DNA of 64,000 nt from Flavobacteriaceae bacterium (GTDB lineage Bacteria > Bacteroidota > Bacteroidia > Flavobacteriales > Flavobacteriaceae). Positions 12,878 through 35,836 of this stretch are shown piece by piece. A program made the translations under genes and the position numbers. Location of the stretch: NCBI GenBank assembly GCA_002862805.1, contig PKEA01000098.1:1-64000 (forward strand). The letters are read 5' to 3'. The notes under the pieces were generated by a model. It saw only the letters and a program-made list of their open reading frames with translations. It was not told the DNA's origin and ran no database searches. Within the stretch, counting starts at the first letter, position 1. Each line of letters opens with the position of its first letter.

Positions 12878-14104
12878 ATGAAGCAATTTCAATTATACAT
12901 ACTTTTTTTCTTTTGTTTTTCTTTAGGGTTTTCTCAAACTCAACAAGAAAAATTAGAAGCGCGAAAAGAGCAAATTCAGAAAGAAATTTCTGCTTTTAAA
13001 AGTTTGTTGCAAACAGAAAAGAAGAAAGAACGTTCAGTGTTAAGTGAAATTGCAGCTCAAAAAGCCCGCATTAGATTAAGTGAGCGATTAATTAGTACAA
13101 CAGCTAAACAAAAACGTTTGTTAGACGACAATATCTATTTAAATCAATTGGAAATCAATAAATTGAATAGAGAGTTGAAAGTACTAAAAGAAGATTATGC
13201 TAAAATGATTGTAAAATCATATAAAAGTCGAAATGACCAAAGTAGAATTATGTTTATACTTTCTTCTCAGAATTTTCTTCAGGCTTACAAGCGTATTCAA
13301 TATATGAAACAATATGCAGGTTTTAGAAAAATGCAAGGAGATGAAATTCAAGAAAAACAAGATAAGCTTGCAGTTGCAGTTGTTAAACTTGAGAAAGACA
13401 AAAAGAATAAAGAAAAAGTTCTTGCTGAAAATGAAGCTGAAAAAAAAATATTAGAAGAAAAGAAAAAAGAACAAGAACAGTTAGCGAAAATTATTCAAAA
13501 GGATAAAAAAAAATATGCTGCGGATATTGATAAAAAACAAAAAGAAGCAAGAGATATTGATAAGCAGATTAAAAAAATAATTGCCGATGAAATTGCTGCA
13601 GCTAATAAAAGAAATGCTGCAAAATCGGGAACAAAAACTTCTACAGCATCAGTCTCTAAATTTGATTTAACTCCTGAAGGAAAAATTGTTTCAGATAACT
13701 TTAAACTAAATAAAGGGAAATTACCTTGGCCTGTTGATAATGGTTATGTGCAATTGCGTTATGGTGATCAACCACACCCAGTACATAAAAATCTTACTGT
13801 GCATAATAGTGGGGTAGAAATAGCTACAAAACCAGGCTCAAATGCTAGAGCTATTTTTGGTGGAGAAGTATTACAAGTTCAAGTTATTTCTGCTAACAAC
13901 AAAGCTGTTTATGTTCAGCATGGAGATTTTATTACAGTTTATTTAAACTTAAGTTCTGTAAACGTAAGTAAAGGGGATAAAGTTTCAGTAAAACAAATTT
14001 TAGGAAAAATTCATACTGATTCATCTGGTAATGCAGTAATTAAGTTTTTGGTTTTGCAAAACACAACTTATTTAAATCCAGAACAGTGGATGTCTAATAT
14101 GTAA
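12878..14104 (+). CDS. EnvC-like murein hydrolase activator (degenerate M23/LytM domain)
   Basis: After a signal peptide (FFFCFSLGFSQ) come about 220 residues of charged coiled coil, then a C-terminal LytM (M23 peptidase) fold of about 130 residues. The metal ligands of active LytM enzymes are missing: the H-x-G-x-D motif reads HNSGVEI, the HxH position reads YLNL, and the last His strand reads VIKFLVL. This is the pattern of EnvC and NlpD, which activate amidases during cell separation instead of cutting murein. The amidase partner is not in the window. Confidence 0.88.
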   Translation: MKQFQLYILFFFCFSLGFSQTQQEKLEARKEQIQKEISAFKSLLQTEKKKERSVLSEIAAQKARIRLSERLISTTAKQKRLLDDNIYLNQLEINKLNRELKVLKEDYAKMIVKSYKSRNDQSRIMFILSSQNFLQAYKRIQYMKQYAGFRKMQGDEIQEKQDKLAVAVVKLEKDKKNKEKVLAENEAEKKILEEKKKEQEQLAKIIQKDKKKYAADIDKKQKEARDIDKQIKKIIADEIAAANKRNAAKSGTKTSTASVSKFDLTPEGKIVSDNFKLNKGKLPWPVDNGYVQLRYGDQPHPVHKNLTVHNSGVEIATKPGSNARAIFGGEVLQVQVISANNKAVYVQHGDFITVYLNLSSVNVSKGDKVSVKQILGKIHTDSSGNAVIKFLVLQNTTYLNPEQWMSNM

Positions 14105-14153
14105 TTTAACAAAAAATACATATTTTCCATAAATACAAATTACTTACTTGGCT

Positions 14154-14161
14154 TATCTTTA
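14154..14161 (+). promoter_or_regulatory. -7 box of small-RNA module 1
   Basis: TATCTTTA lies 4 nt before the conserved GGTTAATAG. The same TAnnTTTA box with the same 4-nt spacing precedes modules 2 and 3, which is the main reason to read the modules as transcripts. Confidence 0.6.
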
Positions 14162-14165
14162 CGAT

Positions 14166-14236
14166 GGTTAATAGTAGTAATTTTTTCTAATCAAAAAATT
14201 TACACAAAAATCCGGAGTGGGGACTTCGGATTTTTT
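14166..14236 (+). ncRNA. Putative small RNA, module 1 (about 71 nt)
   Basis: A 26-nt block at 14166-14191 starts with GGTTAATAG and ends with TTTTTTCTAAT. It is shared with 14300-14325 and with the minus strand at 35715-35690, differing only at two central positions. A short AT-rich stretch and an intrinsic terminator follow (stem 14207-14214 with 14227-14234, then T-rich). The -7 box, constant spacing, conserved 5' end and terminator suggest an independent transcript. No ORF is present. The RNA call is inferred from sequence only. Confidence 0.6.
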
Positions 14237-14287
14237 ATTTTAACAAAAAATACATAAAAAATATAAACAGTAAATTTATTGTTTAAG

Positions 14288-14295
14288 TATTTTTA
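14288..14295 (+). promoter_or_regulatory. -7 box of small-RNA module 2
   Basis: TATTTTTA is placed 4 nt before GGTTAATAG, exactly as in modules 1 and 3. Confidence 0.55.
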
Positions 14296-14299
14296 TAAC

Positions 14300-14375
14300 G
14301 GTTAATAGTGGTAATTTTTTCTAATGAAATAGAAAATGTAAACATCCTAAGTACTTCACTTAGGATGTTTTTTAT
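14300..14375 (+). ncRNA. Putative small RNA, module 2 (about 75 nt)
   Basis: The conserved 26-nt block is at 14300-14325. It is followed by an AT-rich linker and a strong terminator with a 12-bp perfect stem (14341-14352 with 14358-14369). The terminator stem has a different sequence from that of module 1, so only the promoter region and the 5' block are conserved. The terminator also faces the end of mfd (stop at 14372) and probably serves both directions. Modules 1 and 2 are 134 bp apart and also share TTTAACAAAAAATACATA upstream, so they look like a tandem duplication. Confidence 0.6.
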
Positions 14376-17300
14376 ATTTTATTGAAAAGCTCTAAAGCTT
14401 TAGTAATACTTTTTACATTGTCAAATGTGATTAATAAACGTAATCCATTTTTGGTTTGCTTCTCTTTAATTTTGCAAAGATTTCCATTTTGTTGTGCAAA
14501 TTGCATTACTTTCATGAACTTGTTAGATTGATAATATTTGCTTTGTTGATCGCTTATGAAATAACCAATAAGTTTGCCTTGTTTCATTAATAATTTTTCA
14601 ATTCCTATAGAAGTTGCTTTCCATTTTATTCGTAAACTATTTAATAATGCAATTGCAGGTTTTGGAAGCGCACCAAATCGATCAATTAATTTTTGTTCGA
14701 AAAGCAATAAATCTTCCTCTTTTTTAATTAAGCCTAACTCGTTATATAAACTTAATCGTTCAGTAACACTGTTTATATATTCATCAGGAAACAATAATTC
14801 GAAGTCTGTGTCAATTAAAATATCTTTTACGTATTCTTTAGTCTCAATATTATTTTCTTCTTCGTAAAGGTCTTTAAATTCGTTTTCTTTCAATTCGTCA
14901 ATTGCCTCGTTCATTATTTTTTGGTAGGTATCAAAACCAATTTCATTAATGAAACCACTTTGTTCACCGCCTAATAAATCTCCAGCACCACGAATTTCTA
15001 AATCTTTCATGGCAATATTAAATCCGCTTCCCAATTCGCTAAATTGTTCCAATGCATTGATACGTTTTCGTGCATCTTCAGTCATTACAGAATCTGGTGG
15101 AGTAATAAAGTAACAAAATGCTTTTTTATTGCTTCGCCCTACACGACCACGCATTTGATGTAAATCAGATAATCCGAAATTATTGGCATTATTAATAAAA
15201 ATAGTATTCGCATTTGGAACATCTAATCCACTTTCAATAATCGTTGTTGCTACTAAAACATCAAATTCACCTTCAATAAAAGCAAGCATTAATTCTTCTA
15301 GTTTTTTACCGTCCATTTGTCCGTGACCAATTCCCACTTTTGCATCGGGAACTAATCGTTGAATCATTCCAGCAACTTCTTTGATGTTTTCAATGCGATT
15401 ATTAATAAAAAATACTTGTCCGCCACGTTCAATTTCATATGAAATAGCATCTCTAATTACTTCTTCGTTAAAACGCACCACATTTGTTTCAATAGGATGT
15501 CTATTAGGCGGTGGAGTAGTAATTACCGATAAATCTCTAGCTGCCATCAGCGAAAATTGTAACGTTCTTGGAATTGGAGTTGCAGTAAGTGTAAGCGTAT
15601 CTACATTTGCAGCAATAGTTTTTAATTTATCTTTTACGTTTACTCCAAATTTTTGCTCTTCATCAACAATCAACAACCCTAAATCTTTAAATTGTACATT
15701 TTTGTTTACCAATTGATGTGTTCCAATGATAATGTCAACTTTTCCTTCACCAAGTGCTTTTAAAGTTTCTGCTTTTTGCTTGGCTGTTCTAAATCTATTC
15801 AAATAATTTATGGTAACCGGCATGTCTTTTAAACGCTCGGAAAATGTTCTGTAATGTTGATAAGCAAGAATGGTGGTGGGAACTAAAACGGCAACTTGCT
15901 TTCCATTGTCAACCGCTTTAAATGCTGCACGAATGGCAATTTCTGTTTTTCCAAAACCAACATCTCCGCAAACCAATCGATCCATTGGCCTGTCGTTTTC
16001 CATATCCATTTTTACATCATTTGTCGATGTAATTTGATCTGGTGTATCTTCATAAATAAACGAACTTTCTAGTTCTTTTTGCAAATAACTATCGGGCGCG
16101 CAAGCAAAACCTTTGTTTAACCTTCTTTTTGCATACAATTGAATTAAATTGAAAGCTATATGCTTAACTCGTGCTTTTGTTTTTTGTTTTAACGCTTTCC
16201 AAGCGTTGCTTCCTAATTTGTATATTTTAGGAGGTGCACCATCTTTACCGTTGTATTTTGAAATTTTATGTAACGAATGAATACTTACATAAACAATGTC
16301 ATTATCAGCATAGGCCAACTTAATGGCTTCTTGTGTTTTTCCTTCGACCTGAATTTTTTGTAAACCTCCAAATTTTCCAATTCCGTGGTCAATATGCGTA
16401 ACATAATCCCCAACAGATAAAGAGGTAAGCTCTTTTAAGGTGATGGTTTGTTTTTTAGAAGAGCTGTTTTTAATGGTGAATTTATGATAGCGCTCAAAAA
16501 TTTGATGATCTGTATAACAAGCAATTTGATTTTCTATATCTATAAATCCTTGATATAATGGAAAAACTAATGTTTTGTATTGTTTGCGAATGCTTTCGTG
16601 GTTTTCTTCGTCTATGCTTTGAAAAATATCATGAAAACGTTTAGACTGACTTTCGTTTGAACATAAAATATAATTTGAAATACCATTGTCATGGTTCTCA
16701 CTTAAATTGGCTAGTAATAAATCAAATTGTTTATTGAAAGAAGGTTGAGGTTGAATATGAAATTCAAAACTTTTATCTACTTTAAAAATCGACTTGTTGT
16801 TTAATTCCACAATTGGAAAGTCGATTACTTTTTTTAAAAACGTTTTTTCGTTTACAAATAATTCTTCCGGATTGGCTTGTTTTATTTCGCCAGTTAATTT
16901 TGAGTAAGCTTCATCTGCTTTCCCAAATAAAGTGTTTAATTTTTGACCAACTTGCTCGGTATTTTGAATAAAAACAGCGGTTTTTTCGTTGATGTAGTTT
17001 AAAAAGCTTTCGCGATTTTCTTGAAGCATTTTATTTTCTACATTCGGAATAATTGAAATTTTCTTGAGCTTTTCTTTTGAAAGTTGGGTTTCAACATCAA
17101 AACTTCTAATGCTGTCTACTTCGTTGCCAAAAAACTCAATTCTATACGGTTCGTCATTTGAAAAAGAGAATACATCAATAATTCCACCACGAACAGAAAA
17201 TTCGCCGGGTTCAACAACAAAGTCAACACGTTTAAAATTGTATTCAAATAGTGTTTCGTTGATAAAATCAATTGATAAGTTATCGTTTACGGCAAGTTTT

Positions 17301-17725
17301 AAAGTGTTTTTATCTAATTCTTTTCGAGTAACTACTTTTTCAAATAAAGCTTCTGGATATGAAACAATAATAGCTGGTTTTTTACGAGAATTAATTCGGT
17401 TTAAAACTTCAGCTCTTAATAAAACATTTGCATTGTCTGTTTCTTCAATTTGATAAGGTCTTCTGTAAGAACCTGGATAAAATAAAACATCTTCACCGTT
17501 AAGAAGTTGCTCTAAGTCGTTTAAATAATAAGCAGCCTCTTCTTTATCATTTAAAATCAATAAAAAAGGGATTTCTGCTTTTTTAAAAAGCGATTGAATG
17601 ATAATTGATAATGATGATCCTATTAAACCAGAAACAGAAGCTTTTTTTCGTTCAATTAGTAATTGACTAATTTGCTCAATTTTAGGATTTTGTTCGTATT
17701 TTTTTAAAATATCTGAAACGTTCAA
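14372..17725 (-). CDS. mfd: Transcription-repair coupling factor Mfd
   Basis: Mfd removes RNA polymerase stalled at DNA lesions and recruits UvrA. The protein has the UvrB-like N-terminal region, the polymerase-interaction domain (DYVTHIDHGIGKFGGL), the RecG-like translocase (Walker A GDVGFGKTEIA, box DEEQKFGV, TATPIPRTL and QMRGRVGRS) and the C-terminal D7 domain. TTG at 17725 is preferred as start, giving about 1117 residues: it lies shortly after a -7-like box (TAATTTTA on the minus strand, 17754-17747), whereas the longer GTG start at 17764 would lie upstream of that box. Confidence 0.95.
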   Translation of the reverse strand: MNVSDILKKYEQNPKIEQISQLLIERKKASVSGLIGSSLSIIIQSLFKKAEIPFLLILNDKEEAAYYLNDLEQLLNGEDVLFYPGSYRRPYQIEETDNANVLLRAEVLNRINSRKKPAIIVSYPEALFEKVVTRKELDKNTLKLAVNDNLSIDFINETLFEYNFKRVDFVVEPGEFSVRGGIIDVFSFSNDEPYRIEFFGNEVDSIRSFDVETQLSKEKLKKISIIPNVENKMLQENRESFLNYINEKTAVFIQNTEQVGQKLNTLFGKADEAYSKLTGEIKQANPEELFVNEKTFLKKVIDFPIVELNNKSIFKVDKSFEFHIQPQPSFNKQFDLLLANLSENHDNGISNYILCSNESQSKRFHDIFQSIDEENHESIRKQYKTLVFPLYQGFIDIENQIACYTDHQIFERYHKFTIKNSSSKKQTITLKELTSLSVGDYVTHIDHGIGKFGGLQKIQVEGKTQEAIKLAYADNDIVYVSIHSLHKISKYNGKDGAPPKIYKLGSNAWKALKQKTKARVKHIAFNLIQLYAKRRLNKGFACAPDSYLQKELESSFIYEDTPDQITSTNDVKMDMENDRPMDRLVCGDVGFGKTEIAIRAAFKAVDNGKQVAVLVPTTILAYQHYRTFSERLKDMPVTINYLNRFRTAKQKAETLKALGEGKVDIIIGTHQLVNKNVQFKDLGLLIVDEEQKFGVNVKDKLKTIAANVDTLTLTATPIPRTLQFSLMAARDLSVITTPPPNRHPIETNVVRFNEEVIRDAISYEIERGGQVFFINNRIENIKEVAGMIQRLVPDAKVGIGHGQMDGKKLEELMLAFIEGEFDVLVATTIIESGLDVPNANTIFINNANNFGLSDLHQMRGRVGRSNKKAFCYFITPPDSVMTEDARKRINALEQFSELGSGFNIAMKDLEIRGAGDLLGGEQSGFINEIGFDTYQKIMNEAIDELKENEFKDLYEEENNIETKEYVKDILIDTDFELLFPDEYINSVTERLSLYNELGLIKKEEDLLLFEQKLIDRFGALPKPAIALLNSLRIKWKATSIGIEKLLMKQGKLIGYFISDQQSKYYQSNKFMKVMQFAQQNGNLCKIKEKQTKNGLRLLITFDNVKSITKALELFNKI

Positions 17726-17755
17726 GGTTGTAAATTTAATTTGTTGTAAAATTAA

Positions 17756-17796
17756 AAAAACCACTACAATTCCAATTGGTTTATAGTGGTTTTATT
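17756..17796 (-). terminator. Terminator after the 17813-19459 gene
   Basis: AAACCACTA (17758-17766) pairs with TAGTGGTTT (17784-17792). On the minus strand the hairpin is followed by a T-run (the A-run at 17754-17760). It separates the secreted-protein gene from mfd. Confidence 0.75.
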
Positions 17797-35649: not shown

Positions 35650-35685
35650 AAAAAAACCGAAACATAAGTTCCGGTTTTATATTTT
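35650..35685. terminator. Bidirectional terminator, mgtE and small-RNA module 3
   Basis: AAAACCG near 35653-35659 pairs with CGGTTTT at 35672-35678, with four further inner pairs. A-run before and T-rich sequence after allow termination in both directions. Confidence 0.8.
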
Positions 35686-35715
35686 TTCGATTAGAAAAAA
35701 TTACTGCTATTAACC
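35650..35715 (-). ncRNA. Putative small RNA, module 3 (minus strand)
   Basis: On the minus strand a TATCTTTA box (plus 35720-35727) is followed after 4 nt by the same 26-nt block as modules 1 and 2 (plus 35690-35715), then an AT linker and a terminator hairpin (AAAACCG against CGGTTTT, extended by GAAC/GTTT) with a T-run. The hairpin also terminates mgtE from the other side. No ORF is present. The match in order and spacing to two distant modules is the evidence for a family. Confidence 0.6.
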
Positions 35716-35719
35716 TAGG

Positions 35720-35727
35720 TAAAGATA
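35720..35727 (-). promoter_or_regulatory. -7 box of small-RNA module 3
   Basis: TAAAGATA on the plus strand reads TATCTTTA on the minus strand, 4 nt before the conserved block, the same spacing as at 14154 and 14288. Confidence 0.55.
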
Positions 35728-35836
35728 CATTGAACAAGTAGTTTTTAGGTGTATTAAAAATGTAATTTTTGTTAATTTTTTTTTCGTTTAGTTAACTTAA
35801 ATTTATCAGTATATTTATATTATTAATAATAAAAGT

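Follow-up and report, generated by a model that had tools for sequence, protein, structure and literature searches.

A narrowly distributed family of probable small RNA genes with a conserved 5′ end in Flavobacterium

A 64,000-nucleotide stretch of a Flavobacteriaceae contig (PKEA01000098.1; here called the window) contains three short units in which a promoter-like box is followed by a constant block and a terminator, and these units raised the question of whether they are small RNA (sRNA) genes of one family and, if so, what their constant 5′ end would do. Searching with the 26-nt block GGTTAATAGNNGTAATTTTTTCTAAT gave three 0-mismatch matches in the window, at 14166-14191 (+), 14300-14325 (+) and 35690-35715 (-), against a chance expectation of 0.00 in 100 dinucleotide shuffles of the window. 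No further copy was detected in the window's own genome (G000) at up to 3 mismatches. Two plus-strand units with starts 134 bp apart, each consisting of a box, a 4-nt spacer, the block and a terminator, were present as described in the original prediction, and the third unit of the same design, on the minus strand, matched the block exactly. The absence of a reading frame was also upheld among frames of 80 aa or more, the size class listed, none of which covers a unit on its own strand. Unit 3 has mgtE on one side and a 2-hydroxyacid dehydrogenase gene on the other; mfd (-), downstream of unit 2, and mgtE (+), facing unit 3, are both convergent with the units. The peptidase gene on the left flank of the array is envC-like by our reading. 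The features are collected in Table 1.

Table 1. Coordinates of the three units and of the genes flanking the tandem pair, in window positions
Feature	Position	Strand	Basis
Unit 1 upstream element TTAACAAAAAATACAT	14106..14121	+	Exact match, 60 nt before predicted start
Unit 1 -7 promoter-like box TATCTTTA	14154..14161	+	Sequence; family form TAnnTTTG
Unit 1 conserved 5′ end GGTTAATAGTAGTAA	14166..14180	+	Predicted start 14166
Unit 1 weak hairpin (U-rich arm, loop, A-rich arm)	14181..14198	+	Single-sequence fold, without alignment-level support
Unit 1 intrinsic terminator hairpin and T-run	14206..14236	+	Sequence, fold
Unit 2 upstream element TTAACAAAAAATACAT	14240..14255	+	Exact match
Unit 2 -7 promoter-like box TATTTTTA	14288..14295	+	Sequence
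Unit 2 conserved 5′ end GGTTAATAGTGGTAA	14300..14314	+	Predicted start 14300
Unit 2 weak hairpin TTTTCTA/TAGAAAA	14317..14336	+	Predicted fold
Unit 2 intrinsic terminator CATCCTAAGT..ACTTAGGATG and T-run, convergent with mfd 3′ end	14340..14373	+	Sequence, fold
Unit 3 upstream element TTAACAAAAATTACAT	35760..35775	-	Exact match
Unit 3 -7 promoter-like box TATCTTTA	35720..35727	-	Sequence
Unit 3 conserved 5′ end GGTTAATAGCAGTAA	35701..35715	-	Predicted start 35715
Unit 3 A/U hairpin, then intrinsic terminator with T-run, convergent with mgtE	35650..35700	-	Sequence, fold
envC-like M23 peptidase gene, left flank of array	12878..14104	+	Pfam Peptidase_M23; synteny
mfd (transcription-repair coupling factor), right flank of array	14372..17764	-	Pfam TRCF, UvrB_inter, CarD_TRCF_RID; synteny

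The distribution of the units was examined with several searches. BLAST of unit 1 over 299 Flavobacterium genomes detected multicopy relatives in four other genomes. Matches with E values up to 0.1 occurred in 295 of the 299, of which G000, G084, G193, G255 and G301 were kept; nearly all of the other matches, among those listed and inspected, were A/T-rich or terminator sequence. Seven units with a spacing of 158 to 169 bp form an array in G301 (F. profundi). A promoter-plus-tag pattern identified, by our reading, nine hosts including the window's own among 398 Flavobacterium genomes. At up to 2 mismatches this pattern matched 39 of the 398 genomes versus 38 for a reversed control, which never matched more than twice per genome; because of this near-equality, single 2-mismatch matches were dropped and only 0- to 1-mismatch matches in unit context were taken as real. 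Rejected candidates were 1-mismatch matches without unit context in G294, G304 and G418 and, after inspection, 2-mismatch matches in G299 and G146. A broader pattern run over the genomes of 84,980 species matched 9 stretches in seven genomes, all of them Flavobacterium. Two were new hosts (F. jejuense EC11 and Flavobacterium sp. J27) and the others were already known: sp. NRK F7 (G084), an F. haoranii metagenome-assembled genome (MAG; G281), MAG RU_4_13 (G172), sp. 9AF (G338) and F. profundi TP390 (G301).

Other searches did not extend this range. An exact 25-nt pattern had no match in genome contigs, from which the window's own or near records may be absent. A covariance model of 49 transcripts and 6 base pairs, run over 299 genomes from 236 genera of Flavobacteriaceae with 16 candidates scored per genome under strict filters, by which weak relatives can be missed, detected a tagged match in the window's own genome only. 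Two weak matches to this model elsewhere lacked the tag on inspection. A single match in viral contigs, antisense within an open frame of a phage contig, was judged to be due to chance, and plasmids and phages contained no match to one F. profundi unit.

Overall, the family consisted of 55 complete units, corresponding to 49 distinct transcripts, in 11 Flavobacterium genomes (10, 7, 6, 6, 6, 5, 4, 3, 3, 3 and 2 units). One NRK F7 unit, N-masked behind the hairpin, was left out of the 55. Two F. jejuense units (L254:78 and L257:2090) with 77 nt of common upstream sequence and different downstream sequence were both counted; the assembly breaks inside this array. The search for block and box in Flavobacteriaceae genomes, proposed as a check, thus led to a multicopy family in several Flavobacterium species, often in tandem. 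At the level of sequence comparison, the units, their conservation profile, synteny and paralogy establish a family that is real but narrowly distributed, being present in a few Flavobacterium species.

The part of the unit that is conserved was then defined. The 15 nt from the predicted start (the tag) were RGTTAATAGCAGTAA in 50 of the 55 units, with one or two base differences in the remaining five, and the RNA form is RGUUAAUAGCAGUAA. A purine was present as the first base in all 55 units, though this base was outside the selection pattern. Ungapped identity of units between genomes was 0.96 over +1 to +15, compared with 0.62 over -14 to -1, 0.47 over -40 to -15, 0.50 over -80 to -41 and 0.56 over +16 to +40. 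Hence the constant block of 26 nt is a property of the three window copies, but the family-wide constant part is 15 nt long; beyond these, one sub-type has TTTTTTCTAAT, which in the predicted fold is the 5′ arm of an A/U-rich hairpin.

Conservation was also found upstream of the start. TTAACAA was located 60 to 62 nt upstream in 52 of the 55 units, a second TTAACA at 28 to 30 nt in 40 and TGTA at 38 to 40 nt in 39. The -7 box, which was partly used to select the units, had the form TAnnTTTG in 52 of the 55 and TAnnTTTR in all of them. The window units retain the first TTAACAA box, lack the second and have TTTA in place of TTTG. The element TTAACAAAAANTACAT lies exactly 60 nt before all three window starts (14106, 14240 and 35775 on the minus strand), and these are its only exact copies in the window; at up to 2 mismatches, 6 were found versus 3.2 expected, which is not significant by pattern alone. 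As the units had been sought by the tag block, a check was run in 9 genomes with an upstream-element pattern taken from the units, with the tag block left out. This gave 32 matches in 8 of the 9 genomes and none for the reversed control; 28 of the 32 led into the tag block and the other 4 preceded open protein frames. There was no match in G000 at that stringency, and the window units are therefore outside this check.

The arrangement TTAACAA..TGTA..TTAACA was also observed before non-unit genes (L201, L216, L228 and L229). In G193 and G281 the gene behind it encodes a secreted-looking protein; in G255 and G084 it stands before genes for short peptides that are double-glycine-leader-like by our reading. 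The G193 fragment of the secreted-looking gene that was tested had no Pfam match.

The 3′ ends of units 2 and 3 face mfd and mgtE, as would be expected if the units were merely bidirectional terminators or spacers between convergent genes. We regard this as very unlikely, since a tandem arrangement, promoter boxes belonging to each unit, the tag and the upstream element would all be superfluous for termination.

Three sub-types were distinguished by their sequence behind the start. Type A (29 units) starts with GG and has TTTTTTCTACTC or a similar sequence and an A-rich arm. Type B (14 units) starts with AG, has GGAAAGGGTAAAA exactly in 9 of the 14 and CTCAT in the terminator region in all 14. 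Type C (12 units) was confined to G193 and the F. haoranii MAG and has its own body and terminator. In all 7 genomes having type B, its units occurred as a pair, either adjacent or alternating with type A units. The fold of the unit RNAs was predicted computationally. The first 13 nt were predicted to be unpaired with a mean probability of 0.87 over the 49 distinct transcripts. Compared with shuffles, the segment after the tag folded better in type A (mean z, -2.35) and type B (-1.29) and no better in type C (0.07), and in type C the first A/U hairpin was locally absent from the predicted fold. Alignment folding gave no support for this first hairpin. The type A terminator covaries, with at least one double change in 8 of 11 predicted pairs (28 sequences).

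These results modify the picture drawn from the window. Short independent units with a constant 5′ end, often in tandem, were found in several species, but the predicted transcript length is about 65 to 83 nt rather than 65 to 75 nt, and the single-stranded 5′ region extends over the first 13 nt only, the following U-rich stretch being mostly paired in types A and B. The terminator stems had been considered unrelated in sequence; across the family they are not, most stems in the 28 type A sequences being CGAAG..CTTCG variants with compensatory changes. The proposals of changing 3′ hairpins and of selection on promoter and 5′ end only are not supported as they stand: an upstream promoter element is conserved as well, and the type B RNAs have constant 3′ parts.

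The genomic position of the units was compared between hosts. The envC-like gene was identified in 10 hosts, and in each of these the first unit starts 61 to 72 nt behind the stop codon of that gene; the gene was not found in G281, a genome that is 74% complete. The array is closed by mfd, recognised by its C-terminal sequence, directly or after two genes in eight hosts, and in NRK F7 some units are at an envC site and the others at an mfd site. No mfd was present in the stretches fetched from G193 and RU_4_13. In 8 of the 11 genomes no unit was found away from the envC and/or mfd site, and two single copies 22 kb apart, with matching surroundings, are present in G193 and in the F. haoranii MAG. 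Among the 30 best envC loci, 24 were without a unit, as were 28 of the 30 best mfd loci within about 1.5 kb behind mfd (exceptions, G000 and G084). An EnvC tree of 34 loci grouped the 10 hosts, with weak support (0.65 to 0.89), with three non-hosts; the non-hosts may have lost their units, and transfer is also conceivable. These data are best explained by descent within a clade, accompanied by some loss.

Other sequences were found between units in some arrays. The envC-mfd array of G255 contains an rRNA operon with two tRNAs (L036:1873-6973), J27 has an M48-type peptidase gene between units, and in F. jejuense a gene start similar to that of the J27 peptidase is followed by a second frame.

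Dispersal of the units was most evident in G193, which has ten. Many pairs of these copies share a near-identical stretch that begins about 67 nt upstream, where the TTAACAA box lies, and runs to about 72 nt downstream, past the terminator; beyond it on either side the copies diverge. Exceptions were one group with more common downstream sequence, one pair with more common upstream sequence and one copy without the upstream element. The boundaries of identity indicated that promoter to terminator is the common duplicated piece, though not the only one. Three cassettes in G193 are bracketed by units in direct orientation (loci L094, L095, L096 and L224), and this bracketing is the part of the analysis most likely to surprise. 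The cassettes contain a lipoprotein-like gene, whose L095 copy had no Pfam match, and small genes, one of which is weakly DUF6705-like (E = 0.00062, below the cut-off of that family). A further copy of the upstream element, belonging to the lipoprotein-like gene, is situated after the terminator of the unit.

A bracketing of this kind, the boundaries of identity in G193 and the genes or rRNA operon between units of G255, J27 and F. jejuense would also be seen if the unit were in the first place a DNA element, a short cassette end that duplicates or recombines and in which promoter and terminator are incidental. This is rather unlikely. The printed flanks of the ten G193 copies showed no obvious transposase, terminal inverted repeat or target duplication, the F. 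profundi unit searched had no plasmid or phage counterpart, and units are restricted to the envC and/or mfd site in most hosts. Furthermore, the tag is kept between genomes while the rest diverges, which a mere patch of homology does not need. A combined role, in which the unit is both a regulator and an exchange point, with an array of fixed seed and cargo genes swapped by recombination between units, is somewhat less doubtful but still unlikely. As the same upstream element is found at the cargo promoter, sRNA and cargo would switch on together, and the sRNA would on this reading set or silence the output.

The G193 cassettes also bear on whether a unit might serve a downstream gene as its leader or attenuator, or might itself encode a small peptide. 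The original prediction had set an attenuator aside as no gene follows in the same direction; this is correct for the window, where the next genes are convergent, but some G193 units precede the lipoprotein-like gene in the same direction. This gene has its own upstream element behind the unit's terminator, and ATG occurs in just 4 of the 55 transcripts, though GTG or TTG occurs in 14. Both a leader and a small peptide are therefore highly improbable.

The units are probably a new family of paralogous trans-acting sRNAs that share a 5′ seed and belong to a Flavobacterium clade. Each unit would be a transcription unit of its own, with the TTAACAA element at 60 to 62 nt, a Bacteroidota-type -7 box and an intrinsic terminator, and would produce a transcript of about 65 to 83 nt beginning with the tag. 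We infer, along with transcription itself, a seed role for the near-invariant unpaired 5′ end, which would base pair close to the start codons of target mRNAs and alter the translation of these; the identity of targets and the direction of regulation are part of the same inferred scheme. With a shared seed, the copies would act on one target set, and copy number or differing promoters would tune the dose. The tag is taken as a seed by analogy with the architecture of FopS, in which a conserved unpaired 5′ end and a terminator occur in many paralogues.

Potential targets were sought as complements of the tag. Outside the units, 41 near-complements at up to 1 mismatch were detected in 9 hosts, versus 15 for a reversed control that contains the rare CG and is not a fair one. 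Of these 41, 20 were analysed; three start no more than 45 nt behind a possible start codon, two of the three being orthologues, and a consistent tag complement near start codons was not found among the 20. Complement sites in leucine-rich, signal-peptide-like codons at L238 and L239 (orthologues) and L234 are only a lead to a target. Pairing of the tag with 40 window start regions (duplex, -6.3) was no better than that of shuffled tags (-6.1; standard deviation, 0.5), and four G193 cargo leaders gave no clear signal, with 16 to 28% of shuffled tags pairing as well.

The lack of an outstanding target complement would suit the main rival to a seed, in which a protein, such as one with an RNA recognition motif (RRM), binds the constant 5′ end and the RNAs are sponges or protein cofactors. 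RRM is the fold class of RbpB, a partner of Bacteroides sRNAs, and RRM proteins are widespread in the phylum Bacteroidota. One RRM_1 protein was detected in each of the 7 hosts tested; a control Bacteroides genome also matches RRM_1. A tag that is short, near-invariant and predicted to be unpaired would serve such a protein too. Against this, the tag was detected in no more than a few Flavobacterium species despite the wide occurrence of RRM proteins, and we consider a protein site unlikely.

In Bacteroidota other than Bacteroides, base-pairing sRNAs have to our knowledge been poorly mapped so far. With the seed as the preferred reading, a single near-invariant 15-nt 5′ end, natural variation between 2 and 10 copies and sub-types kept across species would offer a direct route to the targets. 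The family would also make it possible to ask if flavobacterial sRNAs are served by RRM proteins in the way that Bacteroides sRNAs are served by RbpB, and how sibling sRNAs multiply. The upstream element common to units and a few exported-protein or peptide genes points to a regulon.

The units were compared with known RNAs. No Rfam family matched them at its cut-off in the window and eight loci. Matches on or over units to anti-hemB, MicC, MIR7991, suhB, EF3314_EF3315 and others were below the gathering scores and were judged to be due to chance, including four anti-hemB (RF02837) matches of 26.6 to 29.4 bits (cut-off, 49.5) over type A units of F. profundi (L039:1217-1778). Flavo-1 (RF01705), suggested as a possible identity, did not match the units in the window or these loci; like them, it is flavobacterial and of unknown function. 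In NRK F7, a Flavo-1 RNA (74.4 bits; L038:1669-1749) is located near the array on the mfd side. The tag family was not found described in the open-licence literature, in which a literal 14-mer had no match.

Sibling sRNAs with several copies and a common seed and promoter element are known as LhrC in Listeria and the csRNAs in Streptococcus; these belong to other phyla and are likened to the units by description only. In its available text, PMC13370916 concerns another regulatory RNA. Rfp18 of Flavobacterium psychrophilum is strongly structured, pairs via its third stem-loop and affects protease mRNAs, according to the portion of the paper available (PMC9723704). The predicted units resemble the Rfp sRNAs in being independent and intergenic in the same genus, and differ, by description only, in their repeated 5′ tag, which that portion does not mention for Rfp18. 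GibS of Bacteroides thetaiotaomicron, of about 145 nt, has two seeds and PM2 promoter boxes at -10 and -30 and base pairs near start codons, as the available sections describe (PMC7366714). A conserved unpaired 5′ stretch, a non-canonical promoter motif of its own and pairing near start codons, the first two predicted and the third proposed for the units, would be points in common with GibS.

The closest likeness in architecture was to FopS (RF04319) of B. thetaiotaomicron, which represses susC-like mRNAs by pairing of its 5′ end with their start regions, binds RbpB and is present in 12 to 15 copies per Bacteroides genome, in the part of the report available (PMC11697453). The FopS model had no match in the window at the gathering threshold (56 bits), exceeded its cut-off in none of 40 genomes (G000 being the one host) and matched no tagged unit in 8 loci up to an E value of 5; in G000, none of the 4 matches listed from 8 weak ones fell on a unit. 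The best of these (G000:C40:17689-17752; L084:1501-1564), with GTGTTTTT..TAAGGTAAATAAAA and a terminator, is FopS-like at 35.6 bits, below the cut-off, and lies away from the units. Among the tagged units of the G255 array, an extra unit at L036:7751 (+) has the box TATTTTTG and the 5′ end GGTTAATAAAGGTG, and L036:7762-7831 has a weak resemblance to FopS (26.4 bits; E = 3.8; cut-off, 56). The FopS consensus also contains GGUUAAUA of the units, and the presence of a FopS-resembling RNA inside this array makes the common string a lead worth following, not evidence of descent from FopS. Unlike FopS, as far as it is described in that part, the units are often in tandem at one locus, have a different 5′ sequence and have an added A/U hairpin. 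Like FopS, these candidate sRNAs are encoded by multicopy paralogous genes (2 to 10 units per host), are of similar length (the FopS model is 71 nt long) and have a conserved 5′ stretch, predicted to be single stranded, followed by an intrinsic terminator. Overall, the units are probably a narrowly distributed family of sRNA genes that is built like FopS but is not recognised by the FopS model.
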